Positions 1,279 through 26,965 of a stretch of DNA of 33,179 nt are shown here, piece by piece (position 1 is the stretch's first letter; each line of letters begins with the position of its first letter). Both the position numbers and the translations under genes were made by a program. Under the pieces are notes generated by a model, which did not search any database, was not told the DNA's origin, and worked only from the letters and a program-made list of their open reading frames with translations. Origin of the DNA: an uncultured Caryophanales bacterium (GTDB taxonomy: Bacteria > Bacillota_I > Bacilli_A > RF39 > UBA660); assembly GCA_946615975.1 (NCBI GenBank), contig CAMOID010000009.1, positions 1 to 33,179 on the forward strand. The letters run 5' to 3'.

Positions 1279-1308
1279 AAAAGTAAAGTCTATGACTTTA
1301 CTTTTTTA
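1279..1308 (+). terminator. Rho-independent terminator after the amidohydrolase gene
   Basis: An AAAAGTAAAGTC arm, a TAT loop, and a GACTTTACTTTT arm running into a T tract. The ATG at 1292 that opens the longest upstream frame of the next gene lies in the loop of this hairpin, which argues against its use as a start. Confidence 0.85.
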
Positions 1309-1372
1309 TATATACTTTTATATAATTAAGAGCGTAGGAAGAGTTTTGGAATATATAAGAAAGGAAAATATT

Positions 1373-3133
1373 ATGTTAAAGTTATTTAAAAATTTTACTA
1401 TTAAAGAATGGCTAATAGTAATTATGTGTGTATTATTAACTTGTGTTAATGTTAGCTTAGAATTAAGAATTCCTGATTATATGTCTGATATAACAAGATT
1501 GATTCAATCTACTGGTGAAGATGTTACTAATGAAATATTAATCCAAGGATTATATATGATATTATGTGCATTTGGTAGTTTAATAAGTGCAATTATAATT
1601 GGATATGCATCTGCTAGATTATCTTCTTCATTTAGTTTGAATTTAAGAGAAAAGATTTTTAATAAAGTTGAAAGTTTTGGAGATTCAGAAGTAAAGAAAT
1701 TTTCTACTGCATCTTTAATTACTAGAACAACTAATGATGTAACTCAAATAGAAATGTTAATTGCTATGGGATTACATATGATATTAAGATCTCCAATTAT
1801 GGCTATATGGGCAATAAGTAAGATAATAGGTAAGAGTATAGAATGGTCAATGTTAACTGCAGGATGTGTAGTATTATTACTATCTGTAGTTATTACACTT
1901 ATGATGATAGTATTACCTAGATTTAAATTAATTCAAAAACTAATAGATAAAGTTAATGGTGTTACTAGAGAAAATTTAACTGGTATTAGAGTTATAAGAG
2001 CTTTTAATGCAGAAGAATTTCAAAGTAATAGATTTGAGACTGTTAATGAACAATTAACAGGTATTCAAATGTTTAATCAAAGATTATTTGCTATTATGGG
2101 ACCAATGATGAATTTAGTAATGCATTCATTAGTATTTGGTATATATATAATAGGTGCTTACTTAATATATAATTCAACAATGGCTGATAAGATTACATTA
2201 TTCTCAAATATGGTTGTATTTACTTCATATGGTATGCAAGTAATCATGTCATTTTTAATGTTAGCATTTATATTCATGATGGCTCCAAGATCTCAAATAA
2301 GTGCTAATAGAATTAATGAAGTATTAGATGAAGAAATACTTATTAAAGAAGGTAAATTTGGAGGCTCAACTGATCAAAAAGGAACAGTTGAATTTAGAAA
2401 TGTTTCATTTAAATATCCAGATGCAGATGAATACATATTAGAAGATATTTCATTTACTGCAAATAAGGGTGAAACAATTGCTTTCATTGGTTCAACTGGA
2501 TCAGGTAAATCAACATTAATAAATTTAATACCTAGATTCTATGATGCTACTAAGGGTGAAATATTAGTAGATGGTATAAATGTTAAAGATTATAAATTTG
2601 AAACATTAAATAATAAATTAGGATATGTACCTCAAAAAGCAGTTATGTTTACTGGTACAGTAGAAGAAAATGTTAAATATGGAACATCATCTAGAAAGAT
2701 TGCAATAGATGATATTAAAGAAGCTATTAAAGTTGCACAAGCAAAAGACTTTGTTGAAAAAATGGAAGATAAATATCATTCTCATATAGCAAGAGGTGGT
2801 ACTAATCTTTCAGGTGGACAAAAACAAAGATTATCTATTGCAAGAGCAATAGCTAGAAAACCTGAAATATATATATTTGATGATACTTTCTCAGCATTAG
2901 ATTATAAAACTGATTCTATATTAAGAAATGAACTAAAAAAATATACTAAGAATTCTACTAATCTAATAGTAGCTCAAAGAATTGGAACAATAATGAATGC
3001 TGATAAGATAATAGTATTAGATGAAGGTAAATGTGTTGGAATTGGAACACATAAAGAATTATTAAAGAAATGTAAGGTATATAAAGAAATTGCCTTATCA
3101 CAATTAAGTGAGGAGGAATTAAAAAATGCCTAG
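1373..3133 (+). CDS. ABC exporter half-transporter, degenerate-site subunit of a heterodimer
   Basis: Type IV (MsbA/BmrCD-like) exporter subunit of 586 aa: a transmembrane domain with six predicted helices, then an ATPase domain. Walker A is GSTGSGKST near residue 372, the signature is LSGGQKQRLSIARA, and Walker B is IYIFDDTFSALD. The catalytic Glu after Walker B is Asp and the switch His is Gln (VAQRIGTI). These changes mark the non-hydrolysing half of heterodimeric exporters such as TM287/288 or BmrC. I start at ATG 1373, preceded by AAGGAAAA, rather than at an in-frame ATG at 1292 inside the upstream terminator. It overlaps the next gene by 8 nt, so the two halves are translationally coupled. 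Substrate unknown; drug or peptide export is plausible. Confidence 0.92.
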   Translation: MLKLFKNFTIKEWLIVIMCVLLTCVNVSLELRIPDYMSDITRLIQSTGEDVTNEILIQGLYMILCAFGSLISAIIIGYASARLSSSFSLNLREKIFNKVESFGDSEVKKFSTASLITRTTNDVTQIEMLIAMGLHMILRSPIMAIWAISKIIGKSIEWSMLTAGCVVLLLSVVITLMMIVLPRFKLIQKLIDKVNGVTRENLTGIRVIRAFNAEEFQSNRFETVNEQLTGIQMFNQRLFAIMGPMMNLVMHSLVFGIYIIGAYLIYNSTMADKITLFSNMVVFTSYGMQVIMSFLMLAFIFMMAPRSQISANRINEVLDEEILIKEGKFGGSTDQKGTVEFRNVSFKYPDADEYILEDISFTANKGETIAFIGSTGSGKSTLINLIPRFYDATKGEILVDGINVKDYKFETLNNKLGYVPQKAVMFTGTVEENVKYGTSSRKIAIDDIKEAIKVAQAKDFVEKMEDKYHSHIARGGTNLSGGQKQRLSIARAIARKPEIYIFDDTFSALDYKTDSILRNELKKYTKNSTNLIVAQRIGTIMNADKIIVLDEGKCVGIGTHKELLKKCKVYKEIALSQLSEEELKNA

Positions 3134-5120
3134 ACCTGGAAGAAATCAAGTAGCAGAAAAACCTAAAAATTTCTTTGGTTCATTAAAGAAACTATTTAAT
3201 AGTTTAAGTACTTGGAAAAACTTAATAATATTCTCATTATTATTAGCAGTTATAAGTGCTATCTTTAGTATAATAGCACCTAAAATGTTATCTAAGTTAA
3301 CTGATGAAATTACATTAGGTATTAAACCTGATACTGAATTATTAACTGAAATAAATAATCAAATAAAAGAAAATAATATGCAAAAAGATATTGTTATAAA
3401 TGATGTAACAATAACTATAAATGATCAAATTGAATATGTTAAATTATTATCTTCTATGAATGTAAATGATCAAGATGCTATGCTAAAAACATTTGATAAA
3501 CTACCAAGTAGTATATATAGTTTAGTAAAACCTAAAATGAATATAGATAATATTAGAAATATAGCTATAGTATTAGCAATACTATATTTATTAGGTTCTA
3601 TATTTAATTATATTGAAGGATATAATATGGCAACTGTTTCTAATAATTTTGCTAGAACTTTAAGAACTAATATATCTTATAAGATAAATAGATTACCACT
3701 TAAGTTCTTTGATAATCATGAAACAGGAGATATATTATCTAGAATTACAAATGATATTGATACTATTCATATGAATTTAAATCAATCACTTGCAAACTTA
3801 ATTGCTAATCTAACATTATTCTTAGGTTCAATGGTAATGATGTTTGTAACAAATTGGATAATGGCTATAGTTGCTATATTATCTAGCTTATTTGGATTTA
3901 TATTTATGTTTATTATTCTAAGTAAATCTCAAAAATACTTTGAACAAAAACAAAAAATATTAGGAGAATTAAATGGATATATTGAAGAAATGTATTCTGG
4001 ACATACTATAGTTAGAACTTATAATGGTATTAACAATGCTCAAAAAGAATTTGATAGATTAAATAAAGGTTTATATAAGAGTAATATGATGAGTCAATTC
4101 TTATCTGGACTTATGGGACCATTTATGGGATTTATTGGAAATTTTGGATATGTATGTGTATGTATAGCAGGAGCTATTTTAGTATTTAATGGTCATACAA
4201 CATTTGGTACAATTGTAGCATTTATGGTATATATCAGATTATTTACTAATCCATTATCACAAATAGCTCAAAGTATGACTTCAATGCAATCAACAGCAGC
4301 TGCTTCAGAAAGAGTATTTGAATTCTTAGATGAAGAAGAAATGGAAAGCGAAACACACATTACTAAACATTTAGATAAGTCTAAGGTAAAAGGCGAAATA
4401 GTATTTGATCATGTTAAATTTGGATATGATCCAGATAAAACTATTATTAAAGATTTCTCTGTTAAAGTTAAACCTGGACAAAAGGTTGCTATTGTTGGAC
4501 CAACTGGTGCTGGTAAAACAACACTAGTAAATCTATTAATGAAATTCTATGATATTAATTCAGGTAATATAACTATAGATGGTGTATCTACAAAAGAATT
4601 AACAAGAGAAAATATTCATGATTTATTCTGTATGGTATTACAAGATACATGGTTATTTGAAGGTTCTATAAGAGATAATATTAAATTTAATAGAACTGAT
4701 TTATCAGATGAAGAAATTATGAATGCTTGTAAAGTAGTAGGGGTATCTCATTTTATAAATGCATTACCAAATAAATTAGATTTTGAATTAAAAGATTCCG
4801 AATCAATTTCTAGTGGACAAAAACAATTATTTACAATTGCAAGAGGTATGTTAGAAGATGCTCCATTCTTAATATTAGATGAAGCAACATCTAATGTAGA
4901 TACTAGAACTGAAGAGTTAGTTCAAAAAGCAATGGATAAATTAACTGTAGGTAGAACATCATTTATTATTGCTCATAGATTATCTACAATTAAAAATGCA
5001 GATCTAATATTAGTAATGAAAGATGGTAATATAATTGAAACTGGAAATCATAAAGAATTAATGAAAAAGAATGGTTTCTATGCTGATTTATATAATTCAC
5101 AATTTGAAAAGACAATTTAA
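3126..5120 (+). CDS. ABC exporter half-transporter, catalytic subunit of the heterodimer
   Basis: Partner of the preceding subunit, 664 aa. It has the full catalytic set: Walker A GPTGAGKTT near residue 457, signature SISSGQKQLFTIARG (variant of LSGGQ), Walker B LILDEATSNVD with the catalytic Glu, and switch His in IIAHRLSTI. One competent and one degenerate half is the classic arrangement of asymmetric exporters. Between the first two helices (about residues 60-150) is an enlarged, polar, presumably extracellular loop of some 80 residues, which also occurs in EfrB/BmrD-like proteins of anaerobic Bacillota. GAGGAGG precedes the ATG. A 10-bp hairpin with T tract closes the operon directly at the stop codon. 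Confidence 0.92.
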   Translation: MPRPGRNQVAEKPKNFFGSLKKLFNSLSTWKNLIIFSLLLAVISAIFSIIAPKMLSKLTDEITLGIKPDTELLTEINNQIKENNMQKDIVINDVTITINDQIEYVKLLSSMNVNDQDAMLKTFDKLPSSIYSLVKPKMNIDNIRNIAIVLAILYLLGSIFNYIEGYNMATVSNNFARTLRTNISYKINRLPLKFFDNHETGDILSRITNDIDTIHMNLNQSLANLIANLTLFLGSMVMMFVTNWIMAIVAILSSLFGFIFMFIILSKSQKYFEQKQKILGELNGYIEEMYSGHTIVRTYNGINNAQKEFDRLNKGLYKSNMMSQFLSGLMGPFMGFIGNFGYVCVCIAGAILVFNGHTTFGTIVAFMVYIRLFTNPLSQIAQSMTSMQSTAAASERVFEFLDEEEMESETHITKHLDKSKVKGEIVFDHVKFGYDPDKTIIKDFSVKVKPGQKVAIVGPTGAGKTTLVNLLMKFYDINSGNITIDGVSTKELTRENIHDLFCMVLQDTWLFEGSIRDNIKFNRTDLSDEEIMNACKVVGVSHFINALPNKLDFELKDSESISSGQKQLFTIARGMLEDAPFLILDEATSNVDTRTEELVQKAMDKLTVGRTSFIIAHRLSTIKNADLILVMKDGNIIETGNHKELMKKNGFYADLYNSQFEKTI

Positions 5121-11378: not shown

Positions 11379-11602
11379 AGTTTTAAAAAGACATGGAACA
11401 AGAGGAGTAAGTTAAAACTACTTAACAGGAATGAATGTTCACCGACTGAGAGACATTCTTAAGAAAGATAACTGAAGGTAGCTTGGGAGTTGTTAGTCTG
11501 AAATAATAGTAAGATTAAACGTTTAATACACGTTACGTATTTGAGAAGTAATTAAAGTGGTACCACGATCTAATCGTCTTTATGATGATTAGATCTTTTT
11601 TA
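11379..11602 (+). promoter_or_regulatory. T-box leader, valine (specifier GUA)
   Basis: tRNA-sensing attenuator. The stem I distal part is seen as GAATGT...ACCGACTGAGAG...ACATTC. The specifier loop CTGAAGGTAGCTT places GTA at 11478-11480, a Val codon followed by a purine, in register with the Lys T-box of this window (GAA-N-codon-G). The T-box core AAAGTGGTACCACGA is at 11555-11568. The competing terminator is GATCTAATC / GATTAGATC (11567-11595) with a T tract to 11602. Uncharged tRNA-Val should stabilise the antiterminator and raise expression of the two downstream genes. Confidence 0.93.
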
Positions 11603-17382: not shown

Positions 17383-17411
17383 TTGACAAGATAGTTTAGA
17401 TGTATTATTAT
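17383..17411 (+). promoter_or_regulatory. Sigma-A promoter of the leader peptide-ABC exporter unit
   Basis: Perfect -35 TTGACA, 17-bp spacer, -10 TATTAT. Predicted start near 17418, giving a leader of about 178 nt before the ABC gene. Confidence 0.85.
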
Positions 17412-17444
17412 TAAAGCGTAATTTTTGGAAGGAGTGTGATTATA

Positions 17445-17528
17445 ATGAGAGTTACAACAATGATTTTAAAAGTATTTGAAAAAGACAGTATAAGTGGATT
17501 AATCACAACTCCATTCTTTTTAGCATAA
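17445..17528 (+). CDS. 27-aa regulatory leader peptide
   Basis: ATG 17445 follows a strong ribosome site (GGAAGGAGTG). The peptide is MRVTTMILKVFEKDSISGL plus ITTPFFLA, ending in TAA at 17528. Codons 18-21 lie in the 5' arm of the antiterminator (17496-17507), so ribosome position on this frame decides the fate of the downstream terminator. The PFFLA end followed at once by a stop resembles nascent-chain stalling peptides, but that is inference. The strong ribosome site, perfect promoter and downstream switch support a real regulatory frame, comparable in principle to BmrB upstream of bmrCD in Bacillus subtilis. Confidence 0.82.
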   Translation: MRVTTMILKVFEKDSISGLITTPFFLA

Positions 17529-17571
17529 CTTTGAAGAATATGTGATTAATCCTACTTATGTAGGATTTTTT
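17496..17571 (+). promoter_or_regulatory. Translation-coupled transcription attenuator
   Basis: GGATTAATCACA (17496-17507) is perfectly complementary over 12 bp to TGTGATTAATCC (17541-17552). The latter overlaps the 5' arm of the terminator AATCCTAC / GTAGGATT (17548-17555 and 17560-17567, loop TTAT) with a T tract to 17571. The two folds exclude each other. A ribosome that completes the leader peptide covers the first arm and lets the terminator form; one held earlier on the peptide frees the arm, so the antiterminator forms and the exporter gene is transcribed. Confidence 0.85.
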
Positions 17572-17595
17572 ATTTATTAGGAAAGGGGAATGTAT

Positions 17596-19350
17596 ATGAA
17601 AAAAACTAATAAGAAGAAAAAACAAAATCTTAAAAGTTTATCTGTAATGCTTAAGTACCTTAAACCTTATAGATTCAAAGTTATAGTATTAACTTTAATT
17701 ATTTTTATATCGGAATTATGTTTTGTTGCTACAGGTTATTTAAATGGTAAATCTGTAGAAGAATTAACACTAGGAAATATTAAACTAGCAGTTCTATTTA
17801 TGTTAGCTTATGGTGCTATAGAAATGTTTGGTTCATTGATTTGGAATTTTTCATCAAATGCCTTATCAAGAATGCAAACAACTGCAGCACATAAGATGAC
17901 AGAAGATGTATATTTAAAAATAATGTATTTACCTGCTAAAGCATTTGAAAAAATTAAATCAGGTAAATTAATTAATATTATTACTTCAGATACAGAACAA
18001 ATAGTAGGTTCTGTTCAACAATTAATATCAATTATTGCTAGAGTAATTAATACAGTAATTGTATTTATATACATATTAATTGAAGCACCTATTATTTGTT
18101 TAGAAATAGTATTCTTCTTAGTTGTTTATTATTTTATTAATAAATATTTTAAGAAGAAATTAAAGAAAATAAGAGAAGATACTAAGAAAGATTATGATAA
18201 TCTTTCATCTATCTCAAATGAATCTATACATGGTGTAAGAGAAATAAAAACATTAGGAATTATTAAAAATGTATTTGCTGATGTTAAAGATATAGTTAAG
18301 AAATTAGATAAACATAATAAAACTGAATATAATACTGAAACACTATATGATGCTGCATCAACTATATTATGTGTATCACTTGAAATTGGCTCATTTATAA
18401 CTGCAATTATTTTAGTAGGAATGGGACAAACAAGTGTAGCATTCATGGTTGCTATGACATGGTATATCTATAGATTTACAAATTTAGTATATAATATTAC
18501 ATCATTTACTAAGACATTAGAAAGATTATCAGTTTCTATGGATAGAATAGCTGAAATCTTAGATAATAAGCTTTATAAGGATGTTGAATTCGGAGTAAGT
18601 GAAGTAAATGGAGATGGTGTAGTAGAATTTAAAGGGGTTACATTTAAATATCCAAATGAAAGTAGATTAGTATTAGATAATATTAATATTAAATTTGAAA
18701 ATAATAAAAAGATTGCTATCGTTGGTGCATCAGGTGAAGGTAAATCAACTATATTCAATTTAATTACTAGATTATTTGATCCAACTAAAGGAACTATTAC
18801 AATAGATGGAGTTAATATTAAGAAATTAACTGAAAATTCTTTAAGACAAAATGTATCTATTATTAGACAAGAACCATTTATCTTTAATAGAACAATTAAA
18901 GAAAACTTTGAATTAATAGATCCTAAAGTGAACTTAGAATCTATTAGAAAGTATTGTAAGTTAGCATCTATTGATGATTATATAATGTCTTTACCTAAAC
19001 AATATAATACACTTTTAGGTGAAGGTGGAGTTAACTTATCTGGTGGACAAAAGCAAAGACTTGCTATTGCTCGTACTTTATTAAAGAGATCAAAGATTAT
19101 TCTATTTGATGAAGCAACATCTGCTTTAGATAATGAATCTCAAGAAATAGTAAAAGATACAATCGATAATTTAGTTGAAGATCATACAATTATAATTGTT
19201 GCACATAGATTAACTACAATAGTTAATGCTGATGTAATATATGTAATTGATAAAGGTAAAGTTATTGCTGAAGGAACACACGAAGAATTACTTAAAAATT
19301 GTAAAGAATACCAAAAATTATACAAAAAAGAAAATAGCATTACTAAATAA
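17596..19350 (+). CDS. ABC exporter, MsbA/LmrA-like, attenuator-controlled
   Basis: 584 aa with an N-terminal domain of six membrane helices and a C-terminal ATPase. Walker A is GASGEGKST near residue 376, the signature is LSGGQKQRLAIARTL, Walker B is IILFDEATSALD and the switch His is in IIVAHRLTTI. All catalytic residues are present, so it can work as a homodimer, unlike the pair at 1373-5120. ATG 17596 is seven bases from AAAGGGG; an ATG at 17590 is too close. Control by a drug-responsive leader peptide suggests export of a ribosome-targeting compound, which is inference. A 10-bp inverted repeat without T tract covers the stop codon. Confidence 0.92.
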   Translation: MKKTNKKKKQNLKSLSVMLKYLKPYRFKVIVLTLIIFISELCFVATGYLNGKSVEELTLGNIKLAVLFMLAYGAIEMFGSLIWNFSSNALSRMQTTAAHKMTEDVYLKIMYLPAKAFEKIKSGKLINIITSDTEQIVGSVQQLISIIARVINTVIVFIYILIEAPIICLEIVFFLVVYYFINKYFKKKLKKIREDTKKDYDNLSSISNESIHGVREIKTLGIIKNVFADVKDIVKKLDKHNKTEYNTETLYDAASTILCVSLEIGSFITAIILVGMGQTSVAFMVAMTWYIYRFTNLVYNITSFTKTLERLSVSMDRIAEILDNKLYKDVEFGVSEVNGDGVVEFKGVTFKYPNESRLVLDNINIKFENNKKIAIVGASGEGKSTIFNLITRLFDPTKGTITIDGVNIKKLTENSLRQNVSIIRQEPFIFNRTIKENFELIDPKVNLESIRKYCKLASIDDYIMSLPKQYNTLLGEGGVNLSGGQKQRLAIARTLLKRSKIILFDEATSALDNESQEIVKDTIDNLVEDHTIIIVAHRLTTIVNADVIYVIDKGKVIAEGTHEELLKNCKEYQKLYKKENSITK

Positions 19351-24505: not shown

Positions 24506-25561
24506 ATGAAGAGGAAAAAGAGAAGAATAAGCAATGGTGCTATCTTCATCAATCTTCTTCCTTGTATTACAGTCCTAGGTATAGGTGGAGCAGTAGTATG
24601 CAAAACCTTTGGTGCTGATATTCTAGATTCTTATAATAATTGGAAACTAGAACATCAATTTGTATCAGGTAATGAATCTACATTTGATCTACCAGATATG
24701 CCTACTTGGGATGACATCAAAGCATTAATTGGTGACAAGGAAGAAAATGTTGCTAAAGAACCTGAAGAAGATATTATTGATTTTGATTCAAGTTCAACAG
24801 CAAGTTCTTCAGATTATGTTGAAGAACTTCCTGAGATTGAAGAAGAAATAGTAGAAGAAGAGCCAGAGCCTGTTATAACTCCTGAGTATACTTCATCAGA
24901 GTTATTAGACTCAGGCTATGAATTTTTGGATATCGATTTCGATGGCCTAAAAGAACAAAATGAAGATATTGTTGGTTGGATTGATGTTCCTGGAACAACA
25001 ATAAGTTATCCAGTAGTTCAAGGTGATGATAATGAATATTATCTACATCATGATCTAAATGGTAATAATTCAGCTAATGGAACAATCTTCATAGATTCAA
25101 GAGTTGATTTGGGATTAGGTGATGACTCAAGTACTGTTCAAGGAATGCCAATAGGTTTCTATGGACATCATATGAGATCAGGAAAAATGTTCCAACAACT
25201 TATGAAATTTAAACAAGATGGATTTGTTGAAAATAATCCATATGCAGTTTATTATTCACCTGAAGGTGTTTACAAGTTAGAATTCTTTGGTGATCAATAT
25301 GTTGCCGGAGATAGTGATGAAGGTTTATTTACTAATCAATTATTTGATGAAGAACAATTTAATGATTTCACAAATAATATTATAGATAATTCTTCATTCC
25401 AAACTGATGTAATACCTGAAATGGGTGATAAGATTGGATACTTAGTAACATGTACTTACGAAAGAGACAATTTAAGATATGCTGTTTGGTATAAAGCTGT
25501 TAAGCAATATACTAATGAAATCGATAAGCCAAATGATAATGTATTAACATTATCAAAATAA
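24506..25561 (+). CDS. srtB: Class B sortase
   Basis: Membrane-anchored transpeptidase that attaches surface proteins to peptidoglycan. 351 aa: basic N-terminus, membrane helix at about 11-33, an acidic Ser/Glu-rich linker (about 55-130) longer than usual, then the sortase fold. Catalytic residues: His221 in GFYGHHMRSGKMF, Cys316 in GYLVTCTYERDNLRY, Arg324. The GHHM and TCTYE motifs are those of class B. The two genes immediately downstream encode proteins ending in PKTGD signals and are the obvious substrates. Strong AGAGGGGGA ribosome site; transcribed from P1/P2. Confidence 0.95.
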   Translation: MKRKKRRISNGAIFINLLPCITVLGIGGAVVCKTFGADILDSYNNWKLEHQFVSGNESTFDLPDMPTWDDIKALIGDKEENVAKEPEEDIIDFDSSSTASSSDYVEELPEIEEEIVEEEPEPVITPEYTSSELLDSGYEFLDIDFDGLKEQNEDIVGWIDVPGTTISYPVVQGDDNEYYLHHDLNGNNSANGTIFIDSRVDLGLGDDSSTVQGMPIGFYGHHMRSGKMFQQLMKFKQDGFVENNPYAVYYSPEGVYKLEFFGDQYVAGDSDEGLFTNQLFDEEQFNDFTNNIIDNSSFQTDVIPEMGDKIGYLVTCTYERDNLRYAVWYKAVKQYTNEIDKPNDNVLTLSK

Positions 25562-25583: not shown

Positions 25584-26147
25584 GTGATAAGAGTTAGAGA
25601 AACAAGAAAAATCAGCTTACTAAAATTAAAAAAGATTTTAGCAACTGCTGGATTAATATTAAGTATGGGTTTAGCTGCTATTCCATCAACTCCAGTTTAC
25701 GCTGAAGAAGAAGTATTATTCGAAGATACTTCATCAGATGATGTAAATTTAGAAGATGCTGATAGTAACGGTGTTGAACAAACTAATGGTGATACTAAAG
25801 TAAAGAAAGAAAAAGAAAAGGTAAATAATGGATCTGTTGATACATCTAAGGATACAAAACCTAAAGATGCTAAAAAAGATGAATACAATGGTGATGATAA
25901 TGATTACTTTGATTCATATGATAAATCAAAAGATTCAGATCCTAATGGTGGAGAATATATAGATAGTGATGATGAATACACTAGAAAACATCCACCTGTA
26001 CCAAAAACTGGTGACAATCCTTGGATGCCTGTTGCAGGAGTAGGAGGAACCACAGCTGCTTTAATAGCACTATATGAAATAAGAAAAAAATTATCATTCA
26101 TGAAAAATCTAAATGTTGATGCAAAAGCATTAAAAAAAGTAAAATAA
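25584..26147 (+). CDS. Sortase-anchored surface protein A (PKTGD signal)
   Basis: 187 aa from a GTG start at 25584, placed after GAGGGAGAG exactly as the ATG of the next paralogue is. N-terminal signal peptide with a distinctive SLLKLKKILATAGLILSMG core, cleavage after VYA. The mature part is short, acidic and apparently disordered: [19 protein letters not shown], a Lys-rich stretch, then DTSKDT...YNGDDNDYFDSYDKSKDSDPNG. C-terminal sorting signal VPKTGDNPW, hydrophobic span and basic tail (RKKLSFMKN). No folded domain recognised. Mature part of about 100 residues to the motif: a wall spacer or small antigen-like protein. Confidence 0.88.
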   Translation: MIRVRETRKISLLKLKKILATAGLILSMGLAAIPSTPVYAEEEVLFEDTSSDDVNLEDADSNGVEQTNGDTKVKKEKEKVNNGSVDTSKDTKPKDAKKDEYNGDDNDYFDSYDKSKDSDPNGGEYIDSDDEYTRKHPPVPKTGDNPWMPVAGVGGTTAALIALYEIRKKLSFMKNLNVDAKALKKVK

Positions 26148-26179: not shown

Positions 26180-26965
26180 ATGAAAAAAGTTAGAGAATCA
26201 AGAAAAGTAAGTTTATTAAAATTAAAGAAAATGTTAGCAACTGCTGGATTAATGTTAAGCATGGGTATGGTAGTAATGCCATCTGTTCCAGTTTATGCTG
26301 AAGAAGAAGTATTATTTGAAGATACTTCATCTGATGATGTTAATTTAGAAGATGCTGAAACACCAGCTGTTGAAGATACATTACCTGCTGGAACTGAAAC
26401 AACTCCAGCTACTACTGAAGAACCAGTTGTAGAACAAACTAATGGTCCAACAACTGAAACAAGAAGTGAAGAAACTGTTAATGATGGAACTGTAGATACA
26501 TCTAAGGATACAAATCCTGCAGATGCTGTTAAAGATCCATACAATGGTGATAATAATGATTATTTCGATGATTATGATAAATCAAAGGATCCAGATCCTA
26601 ATGGTGGAGAGTATATAGATAGTCCAAGTGAACCTGAAAGAAAAGGTTTAGTGCCAACACCTACACCAACTCCAACACCAACACCTACACCAACACCAAC
26701 ACCAACACCAACACCTACACCAACTCCAACACCTACACCAACTCCAACACCAACACCAACACCAACACCAACTCCAACACCAACACCAACTCCAGTTCCA
26801 AAAACTGGTGACAATCCTTGGTTACCTGCTGCTGGTGTAATCGGTTTAAGTGGTGCATTAGTTGCTTTATATGATTTAAGAAAGAGAGCATTATTTATTA
26901 AAAAAGTAACAAGTCTTGGTCAAGAAGATGTAGAAGAAATCGAAATTCATCCAAGATCTAAATAA
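26180..26965 (+). CDS. Sortase-anchored surface protein B with Thr-Pro repeat stalk
   Basis: 261 aa paralogue of the preceding gene. The same signal peptide ([19 protein letters not shown]), the same acidic block [19 protein letters not shown] and the same [28 protein letters not shown] block are present. Residues 160-205 are 23 uninterrupted Thr-Pro units, then VPKTGDNPW, a hydrophobic span and [11 protein letters not shown]. The repeat probably forms an extended, possibly glycosylated stalk through the wall. The tail beyond the basic residues is unusually long (about 20 residues, acidic), so the C-terminus reaches well into the cytoplasm before sorting. GAGGGAGAG precedes the ATG. Confidence 0.9.
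26657..26794 (+). repeat. (ACACCA)n-type tandem repeat encoding 23 Thr-Pro units
   Basis: 138 bp of six-base units (ACA/ACT/ACC-like Thr codon plus CCA/CCT) without interruption. Synonymous changes are scattered but the period is strict. Such tracts change length by slippage or recombination, here always in steps that keep frame if whole units are lost or gained. Confidence 0.9.

Follow-up and report, generated by a model that had tools for sequence, protein, structure and literature searches.

A translated leader before an ABC exporter gene in uncultured gut Bacilli, a probable ribosome-mediated transcription attenuator that would respond to arrest near its own start codon

The leader that precedes an ABC exporter gene in the window, i.e., the whole stretch of 33,179 nucleotides analysed here, is probably a trp-like four-arm ribosome-mediated transcription attenuator, in which the anti-antiterminator holds the start site of the leader itself and the arrest of a ribosome close to that start would switch the exporter on. 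Comparison of the sequences of relatives supports the anatomy, the reading frame, the covariation of arms A and B, the pairing of arms B' and C in about half of the leaders, the terminator, and the exclusive linkage to one exporter. From these, we infer the switching, the direction of the response, and the signal, which would be drugs that arrest start-proximal ribosomes, in the likeliest case inhibitors of translation that keep ribosomes on or close to start codons. A ribosome-mediated attenuator before an ABC exporter had already been proposed in the first-pass annotation, and this proposal is supported, given that the frame and the arms, on whose conservation in relatives it had been staked, both recur, in 41 of 93 loci and at 31 of 31 matches to an upstream signature. 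The features of the leader and its target are as follows.

17383 to 17411, forward strand: sigma70-type promoter, TTGACA-17-TATTAT, with 11 of 12 consensus bases.
17430 to 17434, forward strand: Shine-Dalgarno (SD) core AGGAG of the leader ORF, from the sequence.
17431 to 17443, forward strand: arm A, GGAGTGTGATTAT, SD and start region, 5' strand of the putative anti-antiterminator, pairing with arm B.
17445 to 17528, forward strand: leader ORF of 27 codons and TAA, peptide MRVTTMILKVFEKDSISGLITTPFFLA*.
17496 to 17507, forward strand: arm B', GGATTAATCACA, 5' strand of the putative antiterminator inside the ORF, 12 bp with 17541 to 17552.
17499 to 17513, forward strand: arm B, TTAATCACAACTCCA, ORF end, antisense to arm A and overlapping B'.
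17541 to 17552, forward strand: arm C, TGTGATTAATCC, 3' strand of the putative antiterminator, overlapping the 5' arm of the terminator.
17548 to 17571, forward strand: intrinsic terminator from a terminator scan, 8-bp stem, 4-nt loop, T6.
17596 to 19350, forward strand: ABCB-type exporter gene with a transmembrane domain and a nucleotide-binding domain (Pfam PF00664, PF00005).

Three alternative pairings would be formed by these arms. Arm A would present the SD and start codon of the leader, B' and B would lie in the second half of the ORF, C would overlap the 5' arm of the terminator, and D would be its 3' arm; A:B would then act as anti-antiterminator, B':C as antiterminator, and C:D as terminator. 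The A:B pairing would also hide the start site of the leader. In the undisturbed cell, the leader would be translated and released, or A:B would fold, and transcription would end at the terminator. If a ribosome came to a halt at the start codon or within the first eight or so codons, it would cover arm A and A:B could not form; B' would pair with C, and the polymerase would enter the exporter gene. Start-proximal arrest would induce the exporter whatever the peptide says, and arrest at the stop codon would have a similar, weaker effect by masking arm B.

The promoter, previously described as perfect, is strong but falls short of perfection, and a TTGAC...TATAAT motif resembling a promoter is found at the same distance before most relatives. 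The sequence also contains all the other elements described earlier: the ribosome site, which is strong, the frame of 27 codons, the antiterminator of 12 bp, and the terminator that overlaps it. The span 17418 to 17571 is right for the transcribed part. The SD region reads AAGGAGTG in the window, which is also typical of the relatives. The terminator, AATCCTAC-TTAT-GTAGGATT at 17548 to 17567 with its T6 run at 17566 to 17571, has the second antiterminator arm in common; the scan found one terminator versus 0.4 expected. The leader folds at -39.1 kcal/mol versus -25.1 kcal/mol for shuffled sequences (z = -4.33), and none of 200 shuffles was as good. Versus dinucleotide shuffles, the duplexes in the window reach -16.2 kcal/mol for A:B (p = 0.017) and -26.2 kcal/mol for B':C (p = 0.003). 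A conserved GAATTTrAAG is also seen at the probable start of the transcript (17418 to 17460 in the window, and in relatives), partly complementary to AAATTC in codons 3 to 6. A possible 5' stem, GAATTTG...CAAATTC, would enclose the ribosome site; it seemed to be conserved but is individually weak (p < 0.05 in 7 of 56 leaders).

The pairing of arm A, from the SD to codon 3, with the end of its own ORF was missed in the first reading of this DNA, and it is the best conserved pairing of all, ahead of B':C. Both pairings were evaluated in 56 non-identical leaders by duplex and dinucleotide-shuffle tests, and A:B by ORF swaps as well; these direct tests were preferred to a covariance model because the loops differ too widely in length for a reliable MAFFT alignment. 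The candidate ORFs L102, L131, and L137 were dropped for their weak A:B, and L062 was retained (-21.9 kcal/mol). Arm A pairs with its own ORF end at p < 0.05 in 55 of the 56 leaders (47 at p <= 0.01), with a median of -18.8 kcal/mol versus -8.8 kcal/mol for shuffles and 18 pairs. In all 56, the best partner of arm A starts inside the ORF, also if the choice is extended by 60 nt downstream, and the end of arm B lies a median of 5 nt upstream of the ORF end. ORFs swapped in from relatives pair worse with arm A (-11.9 versus the native -18.8 kcal/mol), and the window's own ORF ranks first among 56 partners for the arm A of the window. The pair types change in a compensatory manner at position -1 (AU 28, CG 11, UA 8), position -5 (AU 26, GC 19, UA 6), and position +5 (GC 13, UA 12, AU 8, CG 3), which is covariation around the leader start codon.

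The B':C pairing is individually significant (p < 0.05) in 30 of the 56 leaders and not significant in the remaining 26; jointly, Fisher's p is about 1e-22, a value uncorrected for relatedness. A terminator was found in 51 of the 56, and none by simple scan in the other five. In 12 of the 51 leaders, the ORF extends into the first arm of this terminator, so a ribosome held there would block the terminator itself too. At L087, L091 (G126, G248), and L133 (G066), A:B is strong and there is no convincing terminator; control at these loci may act on translation.

The leader frame is clearly conserved. The 31 signature loci were picked without any ORF criterion, and in all of them the ATG that follows the signature opens a frame of 26 to 36 codons, while none of the 62 alternative frames (+1 and +2) has a length of 20 to 40 codons, with the first stop after 3.6 codons on average. 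A GGAG lies 7 to 8 nt before the ATG in 50 of the 56 leaders, the SD spacing being constant. The peptides, on the other hand, have a pS of 0.178 and a pN of 0.195 (pN/pS 1.09, from 22 close pairs that are not fully independent). Frame conservation together with this ratio means that being translated is selected, and that the identity of the peptide is not. The recurring residues, which are NSK close to the start, a central VV, and FP or TP towards the end, coincide with the RNA arms, the FP/TP codons falling in arm B, antisense to the SD; beyond these RNA-imposed residues, no arrest motif is shared among the leader peptides. The best reading of these sequences is that the amino-acid sequence would be irrelevant to the proposed switch. 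The family would in this way separate translation from peptide, two things that are usually confounded in leader peptides.

The exporter is a single ABC half-transporter, in which the transmembrane and ATPase domains are fused, and is nearest by sequence, among PDB chains, to P-glycoprotein-type/ABCB proteins and SAV1866. Its frame is also open from 17590, and the start is best placed at the ATG at 17596 because the SD at 17582 to 17588 fits that ATG. No consistent second ABC gene was found downstream. A second ABC exporter is encoded at 1292 to 5120 as a two-gene pair in a BmrC/BmrD-like arrangement; the hairpin before it (about 1280 to 1306) resembles the terminator of the preceding gene, and no attenuator-type leader ORF was seen there. 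The window also carries a T-box leader (Rfam RF00230, 98.6 bits) at 11385 to 11584, before the gene of an HD-domain-like protein and valS (valine--tRNA ligase), and a surface-protein-like gene at 26180 to 26965, whose product has a long tract of (PT)n repeats and ends in the LPXTG-like PKTGDNP. A shorter paralogue of the latter (25584 to 26147) and a sortase-like gene (24506 to 25561) adjoin it.

Orthologues of the exporter, with 39 to 54% identity, are found in many members of the GTDB family of the window, which consists of uncultured gut Bacilli; paralogues fall below about 38%. The upstream DNA of 93 orthologues was inspected, and 41 have a leader of the same plan, with promoter, strong SD, an ORF of about 22 to 41 codons, and a U-tailed hairpin. 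The leader is missing from more than half of the orthologues, among them L003 and L004 from the genus of the window, in whose genomes the leader precedes a second copy of the exporter instead (L085, L086). A loose pattern, RAAGGAGTGDRAAYATG, gave 51 sites in 291 genomes, mostly ordinary gene starts such as rpmF, and for this reason a longer signature, GAATTTRAAGWGARAGGAGTGRRAA, was adopted. Searched for without mismatches in 84,980 species genomes, this signature gave 31 matches. All are in MAGs, for the most part labelled Bacilli or Erysipelotrichaceae, and the sample names of many of these point to rumen or gut. All 31 precede this exporter, 30 according to blastp and L172 by its N-terminus read by eye. 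With up to one mismatch, the signature is absent from all genomes drawn outside the family; with three mismatches, chance matches are many and similar in controls. The leader of the window has itself drifted from the signature and has kept the arms. At L035 (G314:C2, about 1460 to 1720), found with a relaxed pattern, the leader is followed by a second hairpin and T-run and the exporter is absent; it may be a relic or have been recruited elsewhere. With about 60 examples, these sequences make a well-supported case for a new RNA family. No Rfam family covers the window leader at gathering score and the family is absent from Rfam 15; no description of it was found among the freely accessible papers searched.

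Folding of the leaders with and without a ribosome was used to follow the competition between the arms. In the nascent leader without a ribosome, A:B has a probability above 0.5 in 49 of the 56 leaders once the ORF end is reached, and 0.90 in the window before arm C is made. For the complete free leader, the means over 51 leaders are 0.66 for A:B, 0.79 for the terminator, and 0.14 for the antiterminator. A ribosome was represented by a mask of 29 nt that was moved in steps of one codon along a transcript ending between C and D. With the mask on codons 1 to 7, A:B is at most 0.17 and the antiterminator reaches 0.74 to 0.81; on codons 12 to 14, A:B is 0.65 to 0.72 and the antiterminator 0.32 to 0.39; near the stop codon, A:B is at most 0.16 and the antiterminator 0.47 to 0.68. 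According to the mask folding, read-through is favoured by a ribosome that stalls early in the ORF and, to a lesser degree, by one that stalls at its end, whereas a mid-ORF ribosome or none favours termination. The dependence of read-through on the position of the ribosome is a prediction from these foldings.

The antiterminator of the window is exceptionally strong. In the free full leader at equilibrium it reaches 0.63 (0.99 in another fold) and the terminator 0.26, so that it beats both A:B and the terminator, and under the mask antitermination dominates unless codons 14 to 24 are occupied. Because the antiterminator wins at equilibrium, the OFF state in the window must rest on a moving ribosome that covers B' (codons 14 to 24) or on the earlier folding of A:B, two routes between which thermodynamic folding cannot choose. 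As modelled, the relatives illustrate the four-arm logic better than the window does.

This behaviour of the window is what would be expected from a general sensor of elongation rate of the bmrB kind, where slowing anywhere before B' would allow B':C and A:B would have only the accessory role of limiting re-initiation at the leader ORF. It is also known that bmrCD responds to several 50S drugs and that its anti-antiterminator has no proven role (PMC4191407). Nonetheless, A:B is better conserved than B':C, and in the relatives stalls at codons 10 to 14 leave A:B formed, with the antiterminator at 0.3 to 0.5, which makes such a sensor unlikely. Drug- and peptide-specific stalling on a nascent motif, in the manner of ErmCL or TlrB, is less likely still. 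An ORF of 23 to 41 codons gives a peptide long enough to enter the tunnel, many peptides carry FP or TP near the end, and whether the PFFLA end in the window matters had been raised as a question. A role of this end finds no support among the relatives: the endings differ in every clade (PFFLA, ILTSF, SHIFS, FFTN, HFPVL, FFPTH, TPVFAC), a conserved TTPFFxA ending searched for in their leader ORFs was not found, pN/pS is about 1.1, and the FP/TP codons coincide with the SD-antisense arm B.

The remaining readings are both very improbable. A small ORF directly before an exporter gene could encode the exported peptide, bacteriocin-like or a signal, yet this one is under no purifying selection and ends in an RNA arm that can pair with its own SD. 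The four-arm geometry would equally suit an attenuator of amino-acid starvation such as the phe, trp, or his leaders, and there was a weak, sub-threshold match to Phe_leader in Rfam (21.8 bits versus a cut-off of 55, E = 0.18), which was rejected; the leader has no run of a single codon and no conserved residue, and its target is an exporter.

If the four-arm attenuator with start-proximal arrest is the correct reading, A:B hides the SD and the leader may therefore shut out re-initiation once a single ribosome has gone through. We tentatively consider a self-closing gate, somewhat short of an even chance, in which the ORF end is antisense to its own start, about one pioneer ribosome would probe each transcript, and a ribosome held at start or stop would induce the exporter regardless of drug class or peptide. 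If so, this would be a peptide-independent, general sensor of start arrest in an uncultured gut lineage, and an RNA class of its own. To our knowledge, inducible drug responses have not been described for the uncultured Bacilli of rumen and gut, in which this leader family would tie one exporter to the status of the ribosome. End-to-start antisense pairing would be a simple and portable design, and it predicts induction by antibiotics that arrest ribosomes at start or stop and none by those that arrest them in mid-ORF.

Among known systems, bmrB-bmrCD had been named as the model. The comparison is right in kind, given that a translated leader ORF, an antiterminator and terminator, and a downstream multidrug-type ABC exporter are common to both, but the anatomy differs. 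In bmrB, the terminator lies within the 54-codon ORF (162 nt) and the role of the anti-antiterminator is said to be unclear (PMC4191407), whereas here the terminator follows the ORF, overlapping the stop codon in 12 of 51 leaders; bmrB also controls a heterodimer, and the leader family a single half-transporter. In the patAB genes of S. pneumoniae, ABC exporter genes are likewise reported to be under a transcriptional attenuator (PMC4319486), and the heterodimeric PatAB again differs from the single half-transporter.

The start-codon sensing of vmlR and cplR is closer. In vmlR of Bacillus subtilis, the anti-antiterminator cannot form when initiating ribosomes are arrested on a 3-codon uORF (PMC9226507), and in cplR of C. 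difficile such arrest opens a 5' hairpin that sequesters the uORF (PMC10201436). Sensors of this type are induced by pleuromutilins, lincosamides, and streptogramin A. The start region within the anti-antiterminator, the antiterminator set against an intrinsic terminator, and a peptide that is not the main cue are alike, and induction by start arrest is predicted here as well. No sequence relation to the vmlR or cplR leaders was found. The target differs, being an ABC-F ribosome-protection factor in vmlR and cplR and a membrane exporter (ABC_membrane and ABC_tran) here. The SD of vmlR is outside the hairpin, while here both SD and start codon are inside the stem A:B, whose other strand is the ORF end. 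The leader ORF, of 23 to 41 codons, is far longer than the 3 to 4 codons of vmlR and cplR, and mid-ORF stalls may for this reason matter too. In the toiL uORF of topAI-yjhQ, a single uORF reports arrest at start, middle, and stop for several drug classes (PMC12121999); unlike the present leader, it acts on translation and Rho in E. coli without an intrinsic terminator switch, and its target is a toxin-antitoxin system. With the trp/phe-type attenuators, the leader shares the alternative arms 1:2, 2:3, and 3:4 and a translated leader; it differs in having no regulatory codons and in that its arm 1 consists of the SD and the start codon.
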